From Liolophura sinensis (Eukaryota; Mollusca; Polyplacophora; Chitonida; Chitonidae), in contig NC_088304.1 in the NCBI RefSeq assembly GCF_032854445.1, positions 1,240,001 through 1,304,000 of the forward strand: a stretch of 64,000 nucleotides of DNA. Direction: 5' to 3'. Below are positions 1-60,515 of this stretch, piece after piece. Under the pieces are notes generated by a model. It did not search any database, had not been told where the DNA came from, and was given only the letters and a program-made list of their open reading frames with translations. Within the stretch, counting starts at the first letter, position 1; each line of letters starts with the position of its first letter. A program made the position numbers and the translations under genes.

Positions 1-3000
1 AAGTCGTACAGAGTGGTTTACTGATTCATGCTATCTTTTACTGAGGAGATCCAGTGGTCTCTGCCTGCCAGAAAGTCGTACAGAACGGTTTACTGATTCA
101 TGCTATCTTTTACTGAGGAGATCAAGTGGTCTCTGCCTGCCAGAAAGTCGTACAGAATGGTTTAGTGATTCATGCTATCTTTTACTGAGGAGATCAAGTG
201 GTCTCTGCCTGCCAGAAAGTCATACAGAATGGTTTAGTGATTCATGCTATCTTTTACTGAGGAGATCAAGTGGTCTCTGCCTACCAGAAAGTCATACAGA
301 ATGGTTTAGTGATTCATGCTATCTTTTACTGAGGAGATCCAGTGGTGTCTGCCTGCCAGAAAGTCGTACAGAATGGTTTAGTGATTCATGCTATCTTTTA
401 CTAAGGAGATCAAGTGGTCTCTGCCTGCCAGAAAGTCGTACAGAATGGTTTAGTGATTCATGCTATCTTTTACTGAGGAGATCCACTGGTTTCTGCCTGC
501 CAGAAAGTCATACAGAATGGTTTACTGATTCATGCTATCTTTTACTGAGGAGATCAAGTGGTCTCTGCCTGCCAGAAAGTCATACAGAATGGTTTAGTGA
601 TTCATGCTATCTTTTACTGAGGAGATCAAGTGGTCTCTGCCTACCAGAAAGTCATACAGAATGGTTTAGTGATTCATGCTATCTTTTACTGAGGAGATCC
701 AGTGGTGTCTGCCTGCCAGAAAGTCGTACAGAATGGTTTAGTGATTCATGCTATCTTTTACTAAGGAGATCAAGTGGTCTCTGCCTGCCAGAAAGTCGTA
801 CAGAATGGTTTAGTGATTCATGCTATCTTTTACTGAGGAGATCAAGTGGTCTCTGCCTGCCAGAAAGTCATACAGAATGGTTTAGTGATTCATGCTATCT
901 TTTACTAAGGAGATCAAGTGGTCTCTGCCTGCCAGAAAGTCATACAGAATGGTTTACTGATTCATGCTATCTTTTACTGAGGAGATCCACTGGTTTCTGC
1001 CTGCCAGAAAGTCATACAGAATGGTTTAGTGATTCATGCTATCTTTTACTGAGGAGATCAAGTGGTCTCTGCCTGCCAGAAAGTCATACAGAATGGTTTA
1101 GTGATTCATGCTATCTTTTACTAAGGAGATCAAGTGGTCTCTGCCTGCCAGAAAGTCATACAGAATGGTTTAGTGATTCATGCTATCTTTTACTGAGGAG
1201 ATCCAGTGGTCTCTGCCTACCAGAAAGTCGTACAGAATGGTTTAGTGATTCATGCTATCTTTTACTGAGGAGATCCAGTGGTCTCTGCCTGCCAGAAAGT
1301 CGTACAGAATGGTTTAGTGATTCATGCTATCTTTTACTGAGGAGCTCCAGTGGTCTCTGCCTGCCGGAAAGTCATACAGAATGGTTTAGTGATTCATGCT
1401 ATCTTTTACTGAGGAGATCCAGTGGTCTCTGCCTGCCAGAAAGTCGTGCAGAATGGTTTAGTGATTCATGCTATCTTTTACTGAGGAGATCCAGTGGTCT
1501 CTGCCTGCCAGAAAGTCGTGCAGAATGGTTTGGTGATTCATGGTATCTTTTACTGAGGAGATCCAGTGGTCTCTGCCTGCCAGAAAGTCATACAGAATGG
1601 TTTAGTGATTCATGGTATCTTTTACTGAGGAGATCCAGTGGTCTCTGCCTGCCAGAAAGTCGTACAGAATGGTTTAGTGATTCATGGTATCTTTTACTGA
1701 GGAGATCCAGTGGTCTCTGCCTGCCAGAAAGTCGTACAGAATGGTTTAGTGATTCATGGTATCTTTTACTGAGGAGATCCAGTGGTCTCTGCCTGCCAGA
1801 AAGTCATACAGAATGGTTTAGTGATTCATGGTATCTTTTACTGAGGAGATCCAGTGGTCTCTGCCTGCCAGAAAGTCGTACAGAATGGTTTAGTGATTCA
1901 TGCTATCTTTTACTGAGGAGATCCAGTGGTCTCTGCCTGCCAGAAAGTCGTACAGAATGGTTTAGTGATTCATGCTATCTTTTACTGAGGAGATCCAGTG
2001 GTCTCTGCCTGCCAGAAAGTCGTACAGAATGGTTTAGTGATTCATGCTATCTTTTACTAAGGAGATCCAGTGGTCTCTGCCTGCCAGAAAGTCGTACAGA
2101 ATGGTTTACTGATTCATGCTATCTTTTACTGAGGAGATCAAGTGGTCTCTGCCTGCCAGAAAGTCGTACAGAATGGTTTAGTGATTCATGCTATCTTTTA
2201 CTGAGGAGATCCAGTGGTCTCTGCCTGCCAGAAAGTCGTACAGAATGGTTTAGTGATTCATGCTATCTTTTACTGAGGAGATCAAGTGGTCTCTGCCTGC
2301 CAGAAAGTTGTACAGAATGGTTTACTGATTCATGCTATCTTTTACTAAGGAGATCCAGTGGTCTCTGCCTGCCAGAAAGTCGTACAGAATGGTTTACTGA
2401 TTCATGCTATCTTTTACTGAGGAGATCCAGTGATCTCTGCCTGCCAGAAAGTCGTACAGAATGGTTTAGTGATTCATGCTATCTTTTACTGAGGAGATCC
2501 AGTGGTCTCTGCCTGCCAGAAAGTCATACAGAATGGTTTACTGATTCATGCTATCTTTTACTCAGGAGATCCAGTGGTCTCTGCCTGCCAGAAAGTCGTA
2601 CAGAATGGTTTAGTGATTCATGCTATCTTTTACTGAGGAGATCCAGTGGTCTCTGCCTGCCAGAAAGTCGTACAGAATGGTTTACTGATTCATGCTATCT
2701 TTTACTGAGGAGATCCAGTGGTCTCTGCCTGCCAGAAAGTCGTACAGAATGGTTTAGTGATTCATGCTATCTTTTACTGAGGAGATCCAGTGGTCTCTGC
2801 CTGCCAGAAAGTCATACAGAATGGTTTAGTGATTCATGCTATCTTTTACTGAGGAGATCCAGTGGTCTCTGCCTGCCAGAAAGTCGTGCAGAATGGTTTA
2901 CTGATTCATGCTATCTTTTACTGAGGAGGTCAAGTGGTCTCTGCCTAATGGTTTAGTGATTCATGGTATCTTTTACTGAGGAGATCAAGTGGTCTCTGCC

Positions 3001-6000
3001 TGCCAGAAAGTCGTGCAGAATGGTTTAGTGATTCATGCTATCTTTTACTGAGAGATCCAGTGGTCTCTGCCTGCCAGAAAGTCATACAGAATGGTTTAGT
3101 GATTCATGCTATCTTTTACTGAGGAGATCAAGTGGTCTCTGCCTGCCAGAAAGTCATACAGAATGGTTTAGTGATTCATGCTATCTTTTACTGAGGAGAT
3201 CAAGTGGTCTCTGCCTGCCAGAAAGTCGTACAGAATGGTTTAGTGATTCATGCTATCTTTTACTGAGGAGATCAAGTGGTCTCTGCCTGCCAGAAAGTCA
3301 AACAGAATGGTTTAGTGATTCATGCTATCTTTTACTGAGGAGATCCACTGGTTTCTGCCTGCCAGAAAGTCATACAGAATGGTTTAGTGATTCATGCTAT
3401 CTTTTTCTGAGGAGATCCAGTGGTCTCTGCCTGCCAGAAAGTCGTACAGAATGGTTTAGTGATTCATGCTATCTTTTACTGAGGAGATCCAGTGGTCTCT
3501 GCCTGCCAGAAAGTCGTACAGAATGGTTTAGTGATTCATGCTATCTTTTACTGAGGAGATCCAGTGGTCTCTGCCTGCCAGAAAGTCGTACAGAACGGTT
3601 AACTGATTCATGCTATCTTTTACTGAGGAGATCCACTGGTTTCTGCCTGCCAGAAAGTCGTGCAGAATGGTTTACTGATTCATGCTATCTTTTACTGAGA
3701 GATCCAGTGGTCTCTGCCTGCCAGAAAGTCATACAGAATGGTTTAGTGATTCATGGTATCTTTTACTGAGGAGATCAAGTGGTCTCTGCCTGCCAGAAAG
3801 TCGTGCAGAATGGTTTAGTGATTCATGCTATCTTTTACTGAGAGATCCAGTGGTCTCTGCCTGCCAGAAAGTCATACAGAATGGTTTAGTGATTCATGCT
3901 ATCTTTTACTGAGGAGATCCAGTGGTCTCTGCCTGCCAGAAAGTCATACAGAATGGTTTAGTGATTCATGCTATCTTTTACTGAGGAGATCAAGTGGTCT
4001 CTGCCTGCCAGAAAGTCGTACAGAATGGTTTAGTGATTCATGCTATCTTTTACTGAGGAGATAAAGTGGTCTCTGCCTGCCAGAAAGTCGTACAGAATGG
4101 TTTAGTGATTCATGCTATCTTTTACTGAGGAGATCCACTGGTTTCTGCCTGCCAGAAAGTCATACAGAATGGTTTAGTGATTCATGCTATCTTTTTCTGA
4201 GGAGATCCAGTGGTCTCTGCCTGCCAGAAAGTCGTACAGAATGGTTTAGTGATTCATGCTATCTTTTACTGAGGAGATCCAGTGGTCTCTGCCTGCCAGA
4301 AAGTCGTACAGGATGGTTTAGTGATTCATGCTATCTTTTACTGAGGAGATCCAGTGGTCTCTGCCTGCCAGAAAGTCGTACAGAACGGTTAACTGATTCA
4401 TGCTATCTTTTACTGAGGAGATCCACTGGTTTCTGCCTGCCAGAAAGTCGTGCAGAATGGTTTACTGATTCATGCTATCTTTTACTGAGGAGATCCAGTG
4501 GTGTCTGGCTGCCAGAAAGTCGTACAGAATGGTTTAATGATTCATGCTATCTTTTACTAAGGAGATCAAGTGGTCTCTGCCTACCGAAATGTCGTACAGA
4601 ACGGTTTACTGATTCATGGTATCTTTTACTGAGGAGATCCACTGGTTTCTGCCTGCCAGAAAGTCATACAGAATGGTTTAGTGATTCATGCTATCTTTTA
4701 CTGAGGAGATCCAGTGGTCTCTGCCTGCCAGAAAGTCATACAGAATGGTTTAGTGATTCATGCTATCTTTTACTGAGGAGATCCAGTGGTCTCTGCCTGC
4801 CAGAAAGTCGTACAGAGTGGTTTAGTGATTCATGCTATCTTTTACTGAGGAGATCCAGTGGTCTCTGCATGCCAGAAAGTCGTACAGAGTGGTTTAGTGA
4901 TTCATGCTATCTTTTACTGAGGAGATCAAGTGGTCTCTGCCTGCTGGAATGTCGTACAGAATGGTTTACTGATTCATGCTATCTTTTACTGAGGAGATCC
5001 ACTGGTTTCTGCCTGCCAGAAGGTCATACAGAATGGTTTAGTGATTCATGCTATCTTTTACTGAGGAGATCAAGTGGTCTCTGCCTGCCAGAAAGTTGTA
5101 CAGAATGGTTTAGTGATTCATGCTATCTTTTACTCTTTAGATCAAGTGGTCTCTGCCTGCCAGAAAGTTGTACAGAATGGTTTACTGATTCATGCTATCT
5201 TTTACTGAGGAGATCAAGTGGTCTCTGCCTGCCAGAAAGTCGTACAGAATGGTTTACTGATTCATGGTATCTTCTACTGAGGAGATCCACTGGTTTCTGC
5301 CTGCCAGAAAGTCATACAGAATGGTTTACTGATTCATGCTATCTTTTACTGAGGAGATCAAGTGGTCTCTGCCTGCCAGAAAGTCATACAGAATGGTTTA
5401 GTGATTCATGCTATCTTTCACTGAGGAGATCAAGTGGTCTCTGCCTGCCGGAATGTCGTACAGAGTGGTTTAGTGATTCATGGTATCTTTTACTAAGGAG
5501 ATCCAGTGGTCTCTGCCTGCCAGAAAGTCGTACAGAATGGTTTAGTGATTCATGCTATCTTTTACTGAGGAGATCCAGTGGTCTCTGCCTGCCAGAAAGT
5601 CGTACAGAATGGTTTAGTGATTCATGCTATCTTTTACTGAGGAGATCCAGTTGTCTCTGCCTGCCAGAAAGTCGTACAGAATGGTTTAGTGATTCATGCT
5701 ATCTTTTACTGAGGAGATCCAGTGGTCTCTGTCTGCCAGAAAGTCGTACAGAATGGTTTAGTGATTCATGCTATCTTTTACTGAGGAGATCCAGTGGTCT
5801 CTGCCTGCCAGAAAGTCGTACAGAATGGTTTAGTGATTCATGCTATCTTTTACTGAGGAGATCAAGTGGTCTCTGCCTGCCAGAAAGTCATACAGAATGG
5901 TTTAGTGATTCATGCTATCTTTTACTGAGGAGATCCAGTGGTCTCTGCCTGCCAGAAAGTCATACAGAATGGTTTAGTGATTCATGCTATCTTTTACTGA

Positions 6001-9000
6001 GGAGATCCAGTGGTCTCTGCCTGCCAGAAAGTCGTACAGAATGGTTTACTGATTCATGCTATCTTTTACTGAGGAGATCCAGTGGTCTCTGCCTGCCAGA
6101 AAGTCATACAGAATGGTTTAGTGATTCATGGTATCTTTTACTGAGGAGATCCAGTGGTCTCTGCCTGCCAGAAAGTCGTACAGAATGGTTTAGTGATTCA
6201 TGCTATCTTTTACTGAGGAGATCCAGTGGTCTCTGCCTGCCAGAAAGTCGTACAGAATGGTTTAGTGATTCATGCTATCTTTTACTGAGAGATCCAGTGG
6301 TCTCTGCCTGCCAGAAAGTCGTACAGAATGGTTTAGCGATTCATGCTATCTTTTACTGAGGAGATCAAGTGGTCTCTGCCTGCCAGAAAGTCGTACAGAA
6401 CGGTTTACTGATTCATGCTATCTTTTACTCAGGAGATCCAGTGGTCTCTGCCTGCCAGAAAGTCATACAGAAGGGTTTAGTGATTCATGGTATCTTTTAC
6501 TGAGGAGATCCAGTGGTCTCTGCCTGCCAGAAAGTCGTACAGAATGGTTTAGTGATTCATGGTATCTTTTACTGAGGAGATCCAGTGGTCTCTGCCTGCC
6601 AGAAAGTCGTACAGAATGGTTTAGTGATTCATGGTATCTTTTACTGAGGAGATCCAGTGGTCTCTGCCTGCCAGAAAGTCGTACAGAATGGTTTAGTGAT
6701 TCATGCTATCTTTTACTGAGGAGATCCAGTGGTCTCTGCCTGCCAGAAAGTCGTACAGAATGGTTTAGTGATTCATGCTATCTTTTACTGAGGAGCTCCA
6801 GTGGTCTCTGCCTGCCAGAAAGTCATACAGAATGGTTTAGTGATTCATGCTATCTTTTACTGAGGAGATCCAGTGGTCTCTGCCTGCCAGAAAGTCGTAC
6901 AGAATGGTTTAGTGATTCATGGTATCTTTTACTGAGGAGATCCAGTGGTCTCTGCCTGCCAGAAAGTCATACAGAATGGTTTAGTGATTCATGGTATCTT
7001 TTACTGAGGAGATCCAGTGGTCTCTGCCTGCCAGAAAGTCGTACAGAATGGTTTACTGATTCATGCTATCTTTTACTGAGGAGATCCAGTGGTCTCTGCC
7101 TGCCAGAAAGTCGTACAGAATGGTTTACTGATTCATGCTATCTTTTACTGAGGAGATCCAGTGGTCTCTGCCTGCCAGAAAGTCGTACAGAATGGTTTAC
7201 TGATTCATGCTATCTTTTACTGAGGAGATCCAGTGGTCTCTGCCTGCCAGAAAGTCGTACAGAATGGTTTAGTGATTCATGCTATCTTTTACTGAGGAGA
7301 TCAAGTGGTCTCTGCCTGCCAGAAAGTCGTACAGAATGGTTTACTGATTCATGCTATCTTTTACTGAGGAGATCCAGTGATCTCTGCCTGCCAGAAAGTC
7401 GTACAGAATGGTTTAGTGATTCATGCTGTCTTTTACTCAGGAGATCCAGTGGTCTCTGCCTGCCAGAAAGTCATACAGAATGGTTTAGTGATTCATGCTA
7501 TCTTTTACTGAGGAGATCCAGTGGTCTCTGCCTGCCAGAAAGTCGTACAGAATGGTTTAGTGATTCATGCTATCTTTTACTGAGGAGATCCAGTGGTCTC
7601 TGCCTGCCAGAAAGTCGTACAGAATGGTTTAGTGATTCATGCTATCTTTTACTGAGGAGATCCAGTGGTCTCTGCCTGCCAGAAAGTCATACAGAATGGT
7701 TTAGTGATTCATGCTATCTTTTACTGAGGAGATCCAGTGGTCTCTGCCTGCCAGAAAGTCGTGCAGAATGGTTTACTGATTCATGCTATCTTTTACTGAG
7801 GAGATCAAGTGGTCTCTGCCTGCCAGAAAGTCATACAGAATGGTTTAGTGATTCATGGTATCTTTTACTGAGGAGATCAAGTGGTCTCTGCCTGCCAGAA
7901 AGTCGTGCAGAATGGTTTAGTGATTCATGCTATCTTTTACTGAGAGATCCAGTGGTCTCTGCCTGGCAGAAAGTCATACAGAATGGTTTAGTGATTCATG
8001 CTATCTTTTACTCAGGAGATCCAGTGGTCTCTGCCTGCCAGAAAGTCATACAGAATTGTTTAGTAATTCATGCTATCTTTTACTGAGGAGATCAAGTGGT
8101 CTCTGCCTGCCAGAAAGTCATACAGAACGGTTTACTGATTCATGCTATCTTTTACTGAGGAGATCCAGTGGTCTCTGCCTACCAGAAAGTCGTACAGAAT
8201 GGTTTACTGATTCATGCTATCTTTTACTGAGGAGATCCAGTGGTCTCTGCCTGCCAGAAAGTCATACAGAATGGTTTAGTGATTCATGCTATCTTTTACT
8301 GAGGAGATCAAGTGGTCTCTGCCTACCGAAATGTCGTACAGAACGGTTTACTGATTCATGCTATCTTTTACTGAGGAGATCCACTGGTTTCTGCCTGCCA
8401 GAAAGTCATACAGAATGGTTTAGTGATTCATGCTATCTTTTACTGAGGAGATCCACTGGTTTCTGCCTGCCAGAAAGTCGTACAGAATGGTTTAGTGATT
8501 CATGCTATCTTTTACTGAGGAGATCCAGTGGTGTCTGCCTGCCAGAAAGTCGTACAGAATGGTTTACTGATTCATGCTATCTTTTACTAAGGAGATCAAG
8601 TGGTCTCTGCCTACTGAAATGTCGTACAGAACGGTTTACTGATTCATGCTATCTTTTACTGAGGAGATCCACTGGTTTCTGCCTGCCAGAAAGTCATACA
8701 GAATGGTTTAGTGATTTATGCTATCTTTTACTGAGGAAATCCAGTGGTCTCTGCCTGCCAGAAAGTCATACAGAATGGTTTAGTGATTCATGCTATCTTT
8801 TACTGAGGAGATCCAGTGGTCTCTGCCTGCCAGAAAGTCGTACAGAGTGGTTTAGTGATTCATGCTATCTTTTACTGAGGAGATCCAGTGGTCTCTGCCT
8901 GCCAGAAAGTCGTACAGAGTGGTTTAGTGATTCATGCTATCTTTTACTGAGGAGATCAAGTGGTCTCTGCCTGCCGGAATGTCGTACAGAATGGTTTACT

Positions 9001-11960
9001 GATTCATGGTATCTTTTACTGTGGAGATCCACTGGTTTCTGCCTGCCAGAAGGTCATACAGAATGGTTTAGTGATTCATGCTATCTTTTACTGAGGAGAT
9101 CAAGTGGTCTCTGCCTGCCAGAAAGTTGTACAGAATGGTTTAGTGATTCATGCTATCTTTTACTCTTTAGATCAAGTGGTCTCTGCCTGCCAGAAAGTTG
9201 TACAGAATGGTTTACTGATTCATGCTATCTTTTACTGAGGAGATCAAGTGGTCTCTGCCTGCCAGAAAGTCGTACAGAATGGTTTACTGATTCATGGTAT
9301 CTTTTACCGAGGAGATCCACTGGTTTCTGCCTGCCAGAAAGTCATACAGAATGGTTTACTGATTCATGGTATCTTTTACTGAGGAGATCAAGTGGTCTCT
9401 GCCTGCCAGAAAGTCATACAGAATGGTTTAGTGATTCATGCTATCTTTCACTGAGGAGATCCAGTGGTCTCTGCCTGCCGGAATGTCGTACAGAGTGGTT
9501 TAGTGATTCATGGTATCTTTTACTAAGGAGATCCAGTGGTCTCTGCCTGCCAGAAGATCGTACAGAATGGTTTAGTGATTCATGCTATCTTTTACTGAGG
9601 AGATCAAGTGGTCTCCGCCTGCCAGAAAGTCGTACAGAACAGTTTACTGATTCATGCTATCTTTTACTAAGGAGATCAAGTGGTCTCCGCCTGCCAGAAA
9701 GTCGTACAGAACAGTTTACTGATTCATGGTATCTTTTACTGAGGAGATCAAGTGGTCTCTGCCTGCCAGAAAGTCATACAGAACAGTTTACTGATTCATG
9801 CTATCTTTTACTGAGGAGATCAAGTGGTCTCTGCCTGCCAGAAAGTCATACAGAACGCTTTACTGATTCATGCTATCTTTTACTGAGGAGATCAAGTGGT
9901 CTCTGCCTGCCAGAAAGTCGTACAGAACGGTTTACTGATTCATGCTATCTTTCACTGAGGAGATCAAGTGGTCTCTGCCTGCCGGAAAGCCGTACAGAAC
10001 GGTTTAGTGATTCATGCTATCTTTTACTAAGGAGATCAAGTGGTCTCTGCCTGCCAGAAAGCCGTACAGAACGGTTTACTGATTCATGCTATCTTTTACT
10101 GAGGAGATCAAGTGGTCTCTGCCTGCCGGAATGTCATACAGAACGGTTTAGTGATTCATGCTGTCTTTTACTAAGGAGATCCAGTGGTCTCCGCCTGCCA
10201 GAAAGTCGTACAGAATGGTTTACTGATTCATGCTATCTTTCACTGAGGAGATCAAGTGGTCTCTGCCTGCCAGAAAGTCGTACAGAATGGTTTACTGATT
10301 CATGCTATCTTTTACTGAGGAGATCAAGTGGTCTCTGCCTGCCAGAAAGTCGTACAGAATGGTTTACTGATTCATGGTATCTTTTACTGAGGAGATCCAG
10401 TGGTCTCTGCCTGCCAGAAAGTCGTACAGAGTGGTTTAGTGATTCATGCTATCTTTTACTGAGGAGATCAAGTGGTCTCTGCCTGCCAGAAAGTCGTACA
10501 GAATGGTTTAGTGATTCATGGTATCTTTTACTGAGGAGATCCAGTGGTCTCTGCCTGCCAGAAAGTCGTACAGAACAGTTTACTGATTCATGCTATCTTT
10601 TACTAAGGAGATCAAGTGGTCTCCGCCTGCAGGAATGTCGTACAGAGCGGTTTTAGTGATTCATGCTATCTTTTACTGAGGAGATCAAGTGGCCTCTGCC
10701 TGCCAGAAAGTCGTACAGAATGGTTTACTGATTCATGCTATCTTTCACTGAGGAGATCAAGTGGTCTCTGCCTTCCGGAATGTCGTACAGAATGGTTTAC
10801 TGATTCATGCTATCTTTTACTAAGGAGATTAAGTGGCCTCTGCCTGCCGGAATGTCGTACAGAATGGTTTAGTGATTCATGCTATCTTTTACTGAGGAGA
10901 TCAATTGGCCTCTGCCTGCCGGAATGTCGTACAGAACGGTTTACTGATTCATGCTATCTTTTACTGAGGAGATTAAGTGGTCTCTGCCTGCCGGAATGTC
11001 GTACAGAATGGTTTACTGATTCATGCTATCTTTTACTAAGGAGATTAAGTGGTCTCTGCCTGCCAGAAAGTCGTACAGAATGGTTTACTGATTCATGCTA
11101 TCTTTTACTGAGGAGATCAAGTGGTCTCTGCCTGCCAGAAAGTCGTACAGAATGGTTTACTGATTCATGCTATCTTTTACTGAGGAGATCAAGTGGTCTC
11201 TGCCTGCCGGAATGTCGTGCAGAATGGTTTACTGATTCATGCTATCTTTTACTGAGGAGATCAAGTGGTCTCTGCCTGCCAGAAAGTCGTACAGAATGGT
11301 TTACTGATTCATGCTATCTTTTACTAAGGAGATCAAGTGGTCTCCGCCTGCCGGAATGTCGTACAGAACGGTTTACTGATTCATGCTATCTTTTACTGAG
11401 GAGATTAAGTGGTCTCTGCCTGCCAGAAAGTCGTACAGAATGGTTTACTGATTCATGCTATCTTTTACTAAGGAGATCAAGTGGCCTCTGCCTGCCAGAA
11501 GGTCGTGCAGAATGGTTTACTGATTCATGCTATCTTTTACTCTGGAGATCAAGTGGTCTCTGCCTGCCGGAATGTCGTACAGAATGGTTTAGTGATTCAT
11601 GCTATCTTTTACTCAGGAGATCAAGTGGTCTCCGCCTGCCGGAATGTCGTGCAGAATGGTTTACTGATTCATGCTATGTTTTACTAAGGAGATCAAGTGG
11701 CCTCTGCCTGCCAGAAAGTCATACAGAATGGTTTACTGATTCATGCTATCTTTTACTAAGGAGATCAATTGGCCTCTGCCTGCCGGAATGTCGTACAGAA
11801 TGGTTTACTGATTCATGCTATCTTTTACTGAGGAGATCAAGTGGTCTCTGCCTGCCGGAATGTCGTGCAGAATGGTTTACTGATTCATGCTATCTTTTAC
11901 TAAGGAGATCAAGTGGTCTCTGCCTGCAGGAATGTCGTGCAGAATGGTTTACTGATTCAT
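1..11960 (+). repeat. 72-bp tandem satellite array, about 166 monomers
   Basis: Monomers of exactly 72 bp run from the window edge to 11960, where unique sequence begins; the array probably continues upstream. Conserved landmarks in each monomer are agaaagtcgtacagaatggt, ttcatgctatcttttactga and gtggtctctgcctgcc. Variable sites are few and recurrent (cgt/cat, agt/act, tgc/tgg, tcc/tca). Because 72 is a multiple of 3, one + strand frame stays open for long stretches and encodes a 24-residue repeat of the RSSGLCLPES type, up to about 909 codons (7927-10656). Common variants change the amino acid (R/H, S/T, C/W, W/R) at least as often as not, and 2-bp deletions (for example near 3049, 3695, 3840, 6286 and 7941) and a TAA (near 4063) break the frame, so I read it as non-coding. 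Monomers near the 3' end (10.6-11.96 kb) are more diverged, with ggaatgtcg variants, as expected at an array edge. Confidence 0.97.
4500..9570 (+). repeat. Internal duplication of about 4.03 kb within the 72-bp array
   Basis: Rare variants recur in the same order about 4030 bp apart. The unique tactctttag variant occurs at 5131 and at 9161. The run with ccgaaatg or ctgaaatg, then a gaaggtcat monomer and a gaaagttgt monomer occupies about 4500-5540 and again about 8530-9570. The offset equals 56 monomers minus 2 bp, which suits a block duplication with one intervening 2-bp deletion. A shorter five-monomer (360-bp) duplication is visible at 341 and 701 (gtggtgtctgcctg followed by ctaaggagat). 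The array therefore grew by block duplications as well as single-monomer steps. Confidence 0.8.
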
Positions 11961-12284: not shown

Positions 12285-12403
12285 GATCAGTTTAATGAGT
12301 ACATGTTCCAGCAGGCCATCAAGTTGGAGTACAAGATACTACTGGAGAACAAGTCCAATTTGTCCTGTCCATTCTTCATCGGGGTTCAAACATGCACTTA
12401 ACG
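12285..12403 (+). CDS. PELO: PELO exon that seeded a tandem array
   Basis: A good acceptor (ccctccggccacag) precedes GATCAG, and a GTGAGT donor follows at 12404. The frame matches pelota from residue DQF through LLENKS. Two single-base deletions relative to the expected coding sequence then throw the last 40 or so bases out of frame. The downstream tandem copies of this exon tail keep the expected frame there (TTTGTCCTCCTCCAT), so the deletions are derived or artefactual. The exon is 119 nt where phase demands 121. Confidence 0.82.
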
Positions 12404-15400
12404 GTGAGTTGTCAGTCTGAACTCATTCTTGGTGTTACTTCTGGACAACAAGTCTGAGTTTGTCCTCCATTCTTCTCTAGTTTTAAACACAAACTTAACG
12501 GTGAGTTCTCAGGACTGATATGTGGTGTTTCTGCTGGACAACAAGGTCTGAGTTTGTCCTCCTCCATTCTTTCTCTAGTTTCAAACATGCTATTAACAGT
12601 GAGTTCTCAAGACTGATATGTGGTGTTACTGCTGGACAACAAGTCTGAGTTTGTCCTCCTCCATTCTTTCTCTAGTTTTCAAACATGCTATTAACAGTGA
12701 GTTCTCAGGACTGATATGTGGTGTTACTGCTGGACAACAAGTCTGAGTTTGTCCTCCTCCATTCTTTCTCTAGTTTCAAACATGCTATTAACAGTGAGTT
12801 CTCAGGACTGATATTGTGTTACTGCTGGGACAACAAGTCTGAGTTTGTCCTTCTCCATTCTTCCTCTAGTTTCAAACACACACTTAACGGTGAGTTCTCA
12901 GGACTGATATGTAGTGTTACTGCTGGACAACACGTCTGAGTTTGTCTTTCTCCATTCTTCCTCTAGTTTCAAACACACACTTAACAGTGAGTTCTCAGGA
13001 CTGATGCATGGTGTTACTGCTGGACAACAAGTCTGAGTTTGTCCTCCTCCATTCTTCCTCTAGTTTCAAACACGCTATTAACAGTGAGTTCTCAGGACTG
13101 ATATGTGGTGTTACTGCTGGACAACAAGTCTGAGTTTGTCCTCCTCCATTCTTTCTCTAGTTTCAAACATGCTATTAACAGTGAGTTCTCAAGACTGATA
13201 TGTGGTGTTACTGCTGGACAACAAGTCTGAGTTTGTCCTCCTCCATTCTTTCTCTAGTTTCAAACACGCTATTAACAGTGAGTTCTCAAGACTGATATGT
13301 GGTGTTACTGCTGCACAACAAGTCTGAGTTTGTCCTCCTCCATTCTTTCTCTAGTTTCAAACATGCTATTAACAGTGAGTTCTCAAGACTGATATGTGGT
13401 GTTACTGCTGGACAACAAGTCTGAGTTTGTCCTCCTCCATTCTTTCTCTAATTTCAAACATTCACTTAACATTGAGCTGATGCGTGGTGTTATTGCTGGA
13501 CAACAAGTCTGTCTAAATCTTTGTACCCATCTCACTGGACTGACTGGAGTGTATGAGCCAGGAGTTTTGATCAAGAGTGTCTATGTGATTGTGTGTTTGA
13601 GTGATGTAGTAATCACATATGTGTACTTATCTGCCGCTTGATGTAAGCACGTTTAATGTTTTGATGGATTTATACCACCACTTTGTGTGCTGAAAATTTA
13701 ACATTGCTATCAGTATTATTTTGCTATCATAATTGTTATTATATCACGACAGTGTTGGTATATTCTAGATATATCACATAGTTTTATGCTGCCTCAAAGG
13801 GACGCCATTCCAGACGTACAGATATTTCATCCCGACTCACTGGTAATATACTGTCACTTGTCTACCAGCACTAGGCTTATTCATTTATTCTGCTTGCCAG
13901 ACTTTCAAGAAATTATTAAGTCAGCCAATTTCAAAATCTTTAAAGGCATAATCCGGCTCAGGATTAATCCCACTATTCCCACCACGGCAAAACGTCTTGC
14001 CCAGATGGTTGTCCTTCATCAGTGTACTGTTATAAGATTTTATGATAGGTATTTTTCATGAAGTGATCAAAGTGAAAACTGATGCCATTTTTCTTTGGAC
14101 TCACAGAAGTGCTGTCCGATCCAGCTGTCACATCAAAACTGGCAGACACGAAAGCAGCAGGAGAAGTGCGAGCTTTGGATGACTTCTACAGATGTTACAG
14201 AATGATCCTAATAGGGCTTTCTATGGGTGAGAGTGCCATGATCCAGTTATAGTCCTGGGCCACTTTCAGAAAGCTTAAATCGACTTTTCTGATCTTTTCT
14301 TGTAATTCTTGTCCCTAAATACTATGGCACGTCAGCCTACATGTAGGTAACATCTTTTACATAAAAAACTTTATGTTAAAAGAAATATGACTTGTTAAGT
14401 TTTGTGAATATGTATCCAGTGAAAACACTAACACAAACAGGACATGATCAGACTTTCTAATCTTACCTGTATACTGTAACATAGGTGTCTGAAAAAAGTC
14501 TCGCAAAAGCTTATGTAGAGTGGATGAAACAACGAACAGCTGAGCAGTTGGGAAGATGTTCCTGATGGAAAGTTTTCATTTTGCCTTTTGAACAAGGCGA
14601 GACATATGATCGTTAATTATGTCGAGAAAAGTTGCCTAACATTTACGCTATAAATCCCCCAACCTTTTCAGATATGAAGAGCAACTTTCAGTACAGTTCA
14701 TACACCTTTATAATGTGAATCTGCTTGAATAAACACCTTGAAAACATGCAAGAAGATTGAAGAATTACAGTATGACGAGCCACATAATACTGTAGGACTA
14801 TTTTTACCAGTAGTGACAAAAGAGTTGCAACTCCAAGCTCCCCTTTTGCAATGTTAAATCTGACTGTTTTATCTTGGTTTTCTCTTTCAGTATCAAGGCA
14901 GTAGAGAGGGCAGCAGAGTTACAGGGTATAGAAACCTTGATGGTTACAGATGAGCTTTTCAGGTAACTAAATGGCCTTCAGTATCACTTGTTTATTTATT
15001 TTATCAGTGTGTTGAGTGGCACTGGAGAAGAGTCAAATTCTACATTTTTTAGTTGTAAAATCCAGCCTGATAACTTGGGTTTCCTACCTCCTAACATGGG
15101 CCATTCCCTTAACCTGGGGCCTGTGTGCAAAACGACACGAAATCGTATAAGGCGACATCACAGGTAAAGCCGTCATTTGTGTTATTAAGGCTACTTGTTT
15201 AACCACAATATTTAGTTTATAACAGTATTTAATTTAATTTATTTATTTGATTGGTTTTTTATGCCCTGGTCAAGAATATTTCACTTATACAACGGTAGCA
15301 AGCATTATGATGGGAGGAACCCGGGAAGAGCCCAAAGGAAACCAACCATCATTCGCACGTTGCTGCAGACCTTCCCATGTATGACCGGAGAGGGAAGCAT

Positions 15401-15973
15401 CACAAGTTGGACTTGACTGTCTGGAACCACATTGATGAGAGGGTTCAGAATTATTGCTCTGCACTGACCCTGTTTAATTTAAAGACACAGAGCATGGTTA
15501 CTACATATTTGCATGCATAAAATTAGACCATTTTTGTAAATGTGTCGATTGTTTTTGACGGTGTTTTAATCTCCAGGTCAGCTGTTGTGGAGAAGAGGAA
15601 GCGGTATGTGAAGCTGGTGGACACGGTCAAAGATCTGGGGAGGAGATGTGAAAATATTCTCCAGCCTCCATGTCTCAGGAGAGCGTAAGTTATTTTACAT
15701 CACAGTTTTGTGGACAACCTTAGTAATTGGATGAAAATAATGCATCAGATTTTTGGTTAGCCATATACGCTTACATGTGAGTTTTGTTGAATGAAATTTG
15801 TTATCATTTAACAGTTAAGTGCAAAAAATGAAAAACACAATCAAATTAAATAACTGAGTGAATGGTGTGTTTGTATGTAAACAGAGCTGACTCAGCTGTC
15901 TGGCGTGGCGGCCATTTTGAGGTTCCCCATCCCTGATGAGGATGAAGATCAGGATTCGGAGGAGGAAAACTGA
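12285..15973 (+). CDS. PELO: Pelota homologue, last five exons (5' part outside window)
   Basis: This is an eRF1-like ribosome-rescue factor; pelota works with HBS1 to split stalled ribosomes in no-go and non-stop mRNA decay in the cytoplasm. Exons read from splice sites are 12285-12403, 14107-14226, 14891-14962, 15577-15684 and 15885-15973 (TGA). Conserved landmarks are YMFQQAIK and LLENKS in the first, KLADTKAAGEVRALDDFY in the second, TDELF in the third, KIFSSLHVSGE in the fourth, and LTQLSGVAAILRFPIP followed by an acidic DEDEDQDSEEEN tail in the fifth. This covers the end of the central domain and the C-terminal domain, about 165 of the usual 385 or so residues. Intron phases agree across all junctions. 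The first exon lacks two single bases (near 12358 and 12367), the second lacks one (near 14192) and the fourth has one extra (near 15641). The gene is therefore either mis-sequenced or decayed. Upstream exons should lie beyond the 72-bp array. Confidence 0.9.
12404..13515 (+). repeat. Tandem array of PELO exon tail plus 5' splice site (about 97-bp unit)
   Basis: About 11 copies. Each unit joins the first 35 or so bases of the intron (GTGAGTTCTCAGGACTGAT) to the last 60 or so bases of the preceding PELO exon (CTGCTGGACAACAAGTCTGA, then TTTGTCCTCCTCCATTCT, then TTTCAAACATGCTATTAAC). Translated, the exon part reads LLLDNKSEFVLLHS, then SSFKHAINS, which is clearly the pelota segment in the exon at 12285-12403. 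Nearly every copy keeps a GTGAGT donor; the last one, near 13470, has decayed to attgag. The unit length of 96-98 bp is not a multiple of 3. Confidence 0.9.
13516..14106 (+). other. PELO intron remainder, nothing recognised
   Basis: AT-rich unique sequence between the exon-tail array and the acceptor at 14106. The short open frames here show no recognisable protein. Confidence 0.6.
15236..15420 (-). mobile_element. SINE-like element, minus orientation
   Basis: Read on the minus strand, it has the accttcccatg...ttggtttcctttgggct...cataatgcttgctaccgttgtataagtgaaatattcttgac...ataaaaaaccaatcaaataaataaa arrangement shared with the copies at 17396, 19470, 29228, 31310 and 33560. It lies in the PELO intron between 14962 and 15577. 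I see no coding capacity, as expected for a short non-autonomous retroposon; the family name is not determined. Confidence 0.65.
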
Positions 15974-58797: not shown

Positions 58798-59424
58798 TCA
58801 GATTTCTATTGATGTTTCTTCGTTTTCGTTTCCGTGAAAAACTGTTAAGAAAGTCTGGCTGCTTGGCCCCATGGTTTGTAACTGGGTGCCCTGCTTTTCC
58901 ATATCATCATACTGCTCATCGTCCAGTGGGGTCACTTTGGGGTTTGGCCGTACGCTCATACGCAGACTGGTCAAACTGGCAGTCCTTTTGGTCACCCAGT
59001 CGGTCAGCGTCTCCTCTTTGGGGCGCTCCTCTATGACCTGGATGACCGCCGATCGCAAAATCCGTGGAAGTTTGTCCACAGGTGGCTCAGCGACTAATGC
59101 ATCACGGAAAGTGCCGATGATTCGGCTGCACTCAGAGGCCTTGACTTTGTAGCACAGTTCCTCGAGTTCTAATCTTTCCAGCTGAGGAATTTCAAATGTT
59201 TTGGGAGAGGGCGTTGATGCCAGCCAGCTGTAATCGACAGCGCTTGCGCTTTGTTGTTTCTCCTCCCGGTCACGCGCCATGTAGTACTCTTCCAGCTCCT
59301 TGATTCGGAAGTCAAGTTCTGTCATAAGCGAATCACACACGACACTCTGCTGATCCTTCTCGTGTGTGCGGTAAGGAGTGGTGTAGTCCGCCACCCACTG
59401 ACGCAGCCGCGACACAAATGGCAT
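58798..59424 (-). CDS. RD3: RD3 (retinal degeneration 3) family protein
   Basis: A single uninterrupted 208-residue frame; the open frame extends 18 nt upstream to a TTG, but the first ATG (59424-59422) gives MPFVSRLRQW, aligning with the MSLISWLRW-like start of vertebrate RD3. The family hallmark VDYSWLAST is at residues 63-71. It is followed by a helix with QLERLELEELCYKVKASECS (about 81-100) and a four-helix-bundle-like core to about residue 140 (LPRILRSAVIQVIEE). A polar, probably disordered tail follows. Length is close to the roughly 195 residues of human RD3. RD3 binds and inhibits membrane guanylate cyclases and helps their trafficking in vertebrate photoreceptors; the role of an invertebrate homologue is inference. 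RD3 versus RD3L cannot be decided. It is convergent with the RAMA-like gene. Confidence 0.9.
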   Translation of the reverse strand: MPFVSRLRQWVADYTTPYRTHEKDQQSVVCDSLMTELDFRIKELEEYYMARDREEKQQSASAVDYSWLASTPSPKTFEIPQLERLELEELCYKVKASECSRIIGTFRDALVAEPPVDKLPRILRSAVIQVIEERPKEETLTDWVTKRTASLTSLRMSVRPNPKVTPLDDEQYDDMEKQGTQLQTMGPSSQTFLTVFHGNENEETSIEI

Positions 59425-60515
59425 TGCGGATCGAATGTTCAAACAAGAGCCAGGTTAAAGTAAGATAGTATCCAGTCACAGACGTGGTTTCATACAACTA
59501 CCAATAGCTGTTCAAATCACCACGACTGTTACTGTCCAAACATAAGTTTTGGTTAATTATCATGACAAAATCATGGTGACTCAACACATGGATGGCATCA
59601 GTGACCAAAACTACTGGTCAGTCGTATCATGTTGGCTTCAACTGTCCAGAACGATATTGGGTAAAAGTATGACTAGTAGAATTTGTCCAAGGCTTGCTGA
59701 TGATAATGTCACTTTGGGAGCGTGCTGAAGTGATCTAAGCAGTGTAATGACCAGTATAAGATGTGATCAGTTGTCATCTGGTCATGCTGGTTCCAGGCCG
59801 CCAAAGTAGATCTGTAGACAGTCAGCTGGCATATATCTGCAGTGGAAACAGGCCTCTAGTTAGTATGGCTTAGTGGTATTTCATTTATAAATAGTTCAGG
59901 TAAAATCACAAAGTTTCTTTATGGACACCAATTTCTGATTTATTTTTACAAATGTTTTCATGTACATTCTAACAATGTAACTTTGTGATGTTACTCTGTC
60001 AACTTGTAAGTGCCTTTAAGGAACAAAGTTCAGGTAACATCGGAATTTACTGAATTCAAGAGCAGCATTCTTCATGCTGGATCATTTTGACCAGTAAAAT
60101 CAAACTTTTTGAATTAAATATTGAAGCAATTATGATTGTCAATCATACATCGACTACATACAGTCAGGAGGTCTGTGTGTTTGATTTATTTGCATGGATT
60201 ATTTGAAAGTAATAACTTAAACAAAAGAGCTACATGCACAAAATGTGGCAGAGTGTATTGATATACATTGTACTATAAATACTGTAAGTATTTCATCGAA
60301 ACTTTGATAGGTAAAAGTGCACTTTCAGAAGCATATGAATTAAGCCATGAAGATCAATACTTTTGATGCAAACACTTCTGTTTATATTTCTTATAACATA
60401 TCATTAAAAATTCACAAAAAAACCCCTAAGTGGCACTGTAAGGTAACTGAATCCATTAGAATCAAGTATAAATGTACTTGTTGTGTTAAATGCGCTTTAG
60501 GTGAAATACAGTAGC
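59425..60515. other. 5' flank of RD3, nothing recognised
   Basis: Unique AT-rich sequence. A non-coding first exon and promoter for the minus-strand RD3 gene may lie here, but I see no clear signals. Confidence 0.4.

Follow-up and report, generated by a model that had tools for sequence, protein, structure and literature searches.

Tandem duplication across an exon–intron boundary reportedly featured in a 2007 study as a source of intron gain or change. How the spliceosome chooses among equally good sites is an old question, usually studied with pairs of sites. In the potato RdRp gene, the available text of one report describes a duplication across an exon–intron boundary with a new intron detected (PMC4974935). 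Human segmental duplications contain variable internal tandem repeats at exon–intron boundaries, and 27 intron modifications are given in the accessible sections of that work (PMC2812944). In C. elegans, the intronic minisatellite CeRep25B is linked to alternative splicing (PMC4039745, excerpted text), and exons between large introns are described, in the portion consulted of a further report, as preferring the sites that lie closest across the exon (PMC9225289). Here, we describe a minisatellite that spans the 5′ splice site of a PELO exon in a chiton, together with similar arrays over splice sites of other genes in the same assembly.

Results

The window, i.e., the whole 64,000-nucleotide stretch analysed, corresponds to C10:1240001-1304000, and the assembly searched comprises 609,464,459 bp in 632 contigs. 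This assembly was published as Liolophura japonica, with a HiFi depth of 14x and a mean read of 8,347 bp stated in the accessible part of its description (PMC11068029); the species name has since been corrected to L. sinensis by the assembly authors (PMC12441733). A search with the human PELO protein placed the PELO exons in order from ~C10:1232.5 kb to window position 15973. Exon 8 (12285..12403, 119 nt in the assembly) is bounded by the acceptor ccacag/GATCAG and the donor AACG/GTGAGT, where the slash marks the exon edge, and is followed by exon 9 (14107..14226), exon 10 (14891..14962), exon 11 (15577..15684) and the last exon with the stop codon (15885..15973), all on the + strand and all recognised by homology to human PELO. 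A 104-aa stretch from exons 5-8, which includes the first 25 codons of exon 8, matches pelota in the PDB (5lzw, E=1.8e-51), in line with the initial annotation, which had called the exon part pelota. The phrase quoted there, LLLDNKSEFVLLHS, comes from the array units and not from the exon, which itself reads ILLENKSN before its frame is shifted by two apparent single-base deletions. Short PELO pieces found no match in Pfam, and a PDB match of the exon 11 piece was discarded as chance (E=4.3). From pelota homology and exon order, the boundary that bears the array is the edge of a real coding exon, though exon 8 as assembled does not keep its reading frame.

Long introns lie on both sides of exon 8 (~15.7 kb before it and ~1.7 kb after it). 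A 72-bp satellite detected by TRF fills intron 7; it begins ~100 nt past the end of exon 7, outside the window at ~C10:1236642, occupies window positions 1..11960 and amounts to ~15.3 kb in all (window 1-11960 plus L009 5643-10000; L-numbers are our locus labels), longer than the mean HiFi read. Downstream of the gene, the window is crowded with other minisatellites between 16665 and 62779 (units of 35, 67, 30, 46, 27, 91, 52 and 42 bp and more), and an open frame of 217 aa on the - strand (58798-59451) matches RD3 (PF14473, E=2.5e-27).

At the end of exon 8, TRF delineates an array at 12337-13476 (period 97, 11.8 copies, 91% matches), with a last partial copy ending near 13512. Its copies run head to tail at spacings of 96-98 bp, within the unit size of a minisatellite (~10-100 bp), and the initial count of about 11 units of about 97 bp after the exon is borne out. 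Local alignment to the array unit defines a founder copy at 12337..12434 (+ strand), consisting of the last 67 nt of exon 8 and ~31 nt of intron, and an intronic array of ~11 decoy units of 96-98 bp, the last one partial, extends over 12435..13512 (+ strand). Homology to the exon starts at 12337, and the unit takes ~67 nt from the end of the exon and ~30 nt from the start of the intron; the composition proposed earlier stands on both sides, with its lengths of ~60 and ~35 nt revised. The unit consensus aligns to both sides of the exon 8 boundary with a score of 84, while none of 1000 mononucleotide shuffles scored above 28, placing the match above chance and identifying the array as a tandem duplication across the exon–intron boundary.

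By sequence reading, joining the authentic 5′ splice site of exon 8 (GTGAGT, 12404..12409, + strand) to exon 9 at 14107 preserves the phase. Ten decoy GTGAGT donors follow on the same strand at 12501, 12599, 12697, 12794, 12890, 12987, 13084, 13181, 13278 and 13375 (12501..13380), and the last unit carries a decayed TTGAGC on that strand (13472..13477). With the authentic site included, GTGAGT occupies 11 of 12 donor positions, spaced 96-98 bp apart (10 of the 11 later copies), in agreement with the earlier picture of about ten decoys and a donor kept in nearly all units. Identity averages 96% among seven core units and 91% among ten later units; the units are only 69-74% identical to the founder copy, suggesting that the array is old or has been homogenised away from the exon. 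An origin of the array in assembly is highly improbable: low HiFi depth and the local indels described below could be held to favour it, but the array (~1.1 kb) is far below the mean HiFi read, its units are told apart by position-specific variants, and arrays of the same class recur at other loci.

Two decoys share the 9-mer of the authentic donor. By a simple frequency-based score, the donors at 12501 and 12890 equal the authentic one and the other eight are lower; position -1 is A in eight of the ten decoys and G in the authentic donor. The exon's TCATCGGGG stretch became an acceptor-like stretch in 10 of the 11 later units, bearing CTCTAG behind a pyrimidine tract ~20 nt before the donor position, and CTCTAG is absent from the exon. 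Such features raise the alternative that decoys are used and lower PELO output or yield alternative transcripts, either through the decoy donors or through ~20-nt micro-exons reaching from CTCTAG to the next GTGAGT. We hold this to be quite improbable, given the weaker score of eight of the ten decoys, the in-frame stop met after five residues (GELSV) on read-through past the authentic donor, and the presence of similar arrays in CCT, OGDH and RPTOR genes, where frequent use would be expected to be costly. Recursive splice sites (ratchet points) carry an acceptor AG directly before a donor GT; the ten PELO decoys read CG/GT or CA/GT and are not sites of this type.

As the assembly stands, the PELO frame is broken. 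Read against pelota, four apparent single-base indels fall in ~508 nt of exons 8-12, with exon 8 lacking two bases, exon 9 lacking one and exon 11 having one extra, whereas no indel was seen in exons 1-7, every one of which was matched in one frame. Three of the four resemble homopolymer length changes when read against the expected codons, and the conserved residues around the indels are kept. Reading frames elsewhere were tested on the CCT family, picked before a second array was known. The CCT/Hsp60 family search gave 76 matches, 16 of which list stops inside the match. Among 60 CCT exon matches at eight loci (8,533 nt, part of it intron), no frame break was found: 54 were open in the match frame, and the stops in the other six were attributed by reading to sequence before the acceptor (five) or to a start-offset effect (one). 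Indels like those of PELO exons 8-12 are thus not general, and generic assembly noise was rejected as their cause.

A decaying PELO pseudogene, with the array as a bystander of relaxed selection, would account for indels that are confined to exons 8-12 and absent from exons 1-7 and from the CCT exon matches. Searches of most of the assembly with the pelota family model (2 matches) and with the protein pieced together from the PELO exons found here (18 matches) revealed no second PELO locus, and a second copy in the assembly appears unlikely. This result argues against a pseudogene, as do the homopolymer-like nature of three indels and the conserved residues around them, a HiFi depth that is only 14x in the available text (PMC11068029), and the occurrence of similar arrays in CCT genes whose exons are open; we consider decay improbable. 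The indels are probably sequence errors, of the kind that local consensus error at this depth may leave. Because the frame is broken in the assembly, we can only assume that the array is silent where PELO works.

A search of the assembly with the array unit returned 11 matches, all inside the PELO array (one candidate region scored). The unit is found only there, but the class of arrays is general, and a special attraction to PELO was rejected. Arrays over splice sites also occur at CCT5, CCT3 (three), SUFU, RPTOR, BTAF1/MOT1 (two), OGDH, PTR2, ankyrin and myosin exons, some of these names being our own reading. The initial annotation had presented the array as a satellite born from a coding exon; the origin across an exon–intron boundary stands, but it is not a single case, as similar arrays lie on donors and acceptors of other genes.

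The frequency of the class was assessed in two families chosen regardless of arrays. Of about 92 donors, 4 lie inside arrays, as do 3 of about 92 acceptors; the exons scored were those matched by the family profile. In the CCT family, the CCT5 array was first noticed, during the reading-frame test, as repeated partial family matches 109 bp apart in one gene, and it prompted fetching of the eight loci. The 60 exon matches of this sample, 52 of them with a following match in the gene, were drawn from the family matches outside C3 (a 20-kb gene), C4, C5 and the rest of C6 and C11. Three donor-spanning arrays (CCT5, 109 bp; CCT3, 60 bp and 66 bp) and one acceptor-spanning array (CCT3, 41 bp, seen by eye and missed by the automatic caller) were identified, where CCT5 and CCT3 are names from our own reading of the sequences. 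At CCT5 (L057 5267-6091, reverse complement), the array contains ~93 nt of exon tail with the donor and six further donor copies; around the donor, the first two copies share 97% and 100% identity with the exon, indicating that this array is recent. The CCT3 gene (L060, reverse complement; 4-349, 5373-5743 and 6784-7638) holds the acceptor-spanning and the other two donor-spanning arrays.

For myosin, 65 of 213 candidates were scored and 40 of 84 myosin-head exon matches were fetched, with ~260 bases of flank on each side for 38 of the 40 and shorter flanks for L104 and L106. A donor is spanned by an array at L084 (66 bp), and acceptors are spanned by arrays at L097 (26-321; 95 bp, with ~50 nt of exon head) and L100 (1-266; 32 bp), where the copies keep AG. 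TRF arrays at L090 and L105 are intronic, do not include the splice site and were left out.

In motif scans, we searched for the donor motif AGGTRAGT three times at 83-113 bp spacing, taking the motif read backwards as control; such a control is imperfect, and placements are not arrays. AGGTRAGT triples numbered 2852 placements versus 1119 for the backward control (singles, 50,973 versus 47,894), a triple-to-single ratio of 5.6% versus 2.3%. Triples of the acceptor motif TTTCAGR numbered 3023 versus 1672 (singles, 300,542 versus 180,241), a ratio of 1.01% versus 0.93%. The excess over the backward control is therefore larger for donor-motif than for acceptor-motif triples. The asymmetry hinted at by these scans was dropped on the strength of the family samples, which, with four donors and three acceptors, show no clear donor excess, as expected if both exon edges tolerate copies.

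Counted by eye, donor-motif arrays number at least about 20 in the first 6.74 Mb of C1, and control arrays at least about 12 in 10.45 Mb. Flanks were examined for 17 of the 20 donor-motif arrays (all but 323k, 513k and L033). For seven of the 17, homology confirms an exon that the array adjoins or in whose tail it starts: ankyrin, SUFU, SNF2 and PTR2 flanks are above the Pfam cut-off, RPTOR and OGDH were matched with E=7.2e-6 and E=3.5e-20, respectively, and one flank matches a PDB entry named 'Helicase-like protein' (E=3.4e-11), which we take to be Mot1, the BTAF1 homologue. Three further flanks are exon-like but unconfirmed (L025; L029, with a sub-threshold Branch match; and L037, with no match in the PDB), and seven look non-exonic (L028, L030, L034, L035, L036, L038 and L039). 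Loci such as L031 read CAG/GTGAGT, unlike the PELO decoys. L028 is a 45-bp array of TGCAG/GTAAGT units, in which the donor comes straight after the acceptor, so that the array looks like a row of recursive splice sites; at this locus, no coding exon was recognised. Among 15 acceptor-motif arrays fetched, an exon-like head after the last copy was seen by eye only in L049 and L056, of which L056 is above the Pfam cut-off (Lips) and L049 has no Pfam match. L043 has a coding-like unit but no exon behind it, the candidate L055 showed no TRF array in the stretch fetched, and the array found at 2063k by the acceptor scan, which is the donor array of SUFU, was excluded from the acceptor set.

These data bear on whether minisatellites are born at mutational hotspots formed by donors or exon edges, with R-loops or exposed single strands as examples of a cause, or at random sites where arrays are tolerated. 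The donor-motif ratio favours a hotspot, as does a comparison with chance in the CCT loci: 25 arrays positioned randomly there (shortest TRF period each) would give 1.36 edge arrays against four observed (P=0.04), although a single gene contributes three of the four and the expectation varies with the assumed unit length. The near-equal ratio for TTTCAGR and the similar numbers of donors and acceptors in the family samples speak against it. Some attraction of arrays to exon edges is possible; a hotspot in the full sense we regard as unlikely.

Discussion

We consider it likely that the PELO array arose by ordinary tandem duplication across the end of the exon, in a genome rich in minisatellites, and that it is tolerated as the authentic site remains the nearest to its partner across the exon. 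The genome of this chiton is dense in minisatellites, some of which lie over exon edges, the PELO array being one such case. Duplication over the 5′ splice site of exon 8 would have produced the ~11 intronic copies that are visible in the sequence, and later homogenisation may have followed. Such arrays could survive if the exon is still delimited by its outermost, authentic site, with the rest turned into intron. With long introns on both sides, exon definition should favour the authentic donor, the closest across the exon to the acceptor. Decoy use would add sequence with the stop noted above, and since read-through soon ends there, it should give a non-productive transcript. The proximity rule implies choice of the first donor in a donor array and of the last acceptor in an acceptor array, which fits both kinds of array found.

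A wider reading, advanced tentatively, is that splice-site-spanning minisatellites may form a standing genome-wide class in this chiton, in which a donor or acceptor and its surroundings are copied almost perfectly and a few per cent of the exon ends of conserved genes are affected. They might then serve as a natural library for splice-site choice in which position alone differs, reflect a possible edge preference in mutation, and be a steady source of longer introns and pseudo-exons. Similar sites stand in rows in conserved genes such as CCT5, CCT3, SUFU, OGDH, RPTOR and BTAF1, and the CCT5 copies include ~93 nt of the exon. In the youngest arrays, position is nearly the sole difference between copies, offering a natural experiment on splice-site choice. 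Public RNA-seq could reveal which site is used; five transcriptome samples of the same species are listed in the accessible part of the assembly report (PMC11068029). The arrays could also show how minisatellites lengthen introns from their edges with the protein unharmed.

Duplication across exon–intron boundaries is already known, and the multi-copy, splice-site-bearing class is apparently unreported in the open-licence literature: among the papers listed by our searches, none was seen to describe multi-copy minisatellites over splice sites as a class found throughout a genome. The terms tandem repeat, minisatellite, satellite and simple repeat are likewise absent from the available portion of a chiton comparative paper (PMC12005716). 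As described in the text available, the potato RdRp case (PMC4974935) shares with PELO a duplicated segment that crosses an exon–intron boundary and carries splice signals; it involves one duplication and a new intron, whereas PELO has ~11 copies in an existing intron. CeRep25B also places a minisatellite in introns near splicing decisions, but the sections at hand portray a dispersed family with regulatory motifs and describe no exon-edge units (PMC4039745). Human segmental duplications, in the excerpts of that study (PMC2812944), resemble the chiton in having minisatellite-like repeats at exon–intron boundaries that are able to change splicing there. The human repeats belong to recently duplicated genes, whereas the chiton arrays occupy a few per cent of sampled exon ends, lie in conserved genes and carry a splice site in each unit. 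Like the competing alternative 5′ splice sites treated in the accessible part of PMC9225289, they present several donors for one exon; unlike them, the chiton copies include exon and intron context, many times over, so that position is the main difference between the sites.
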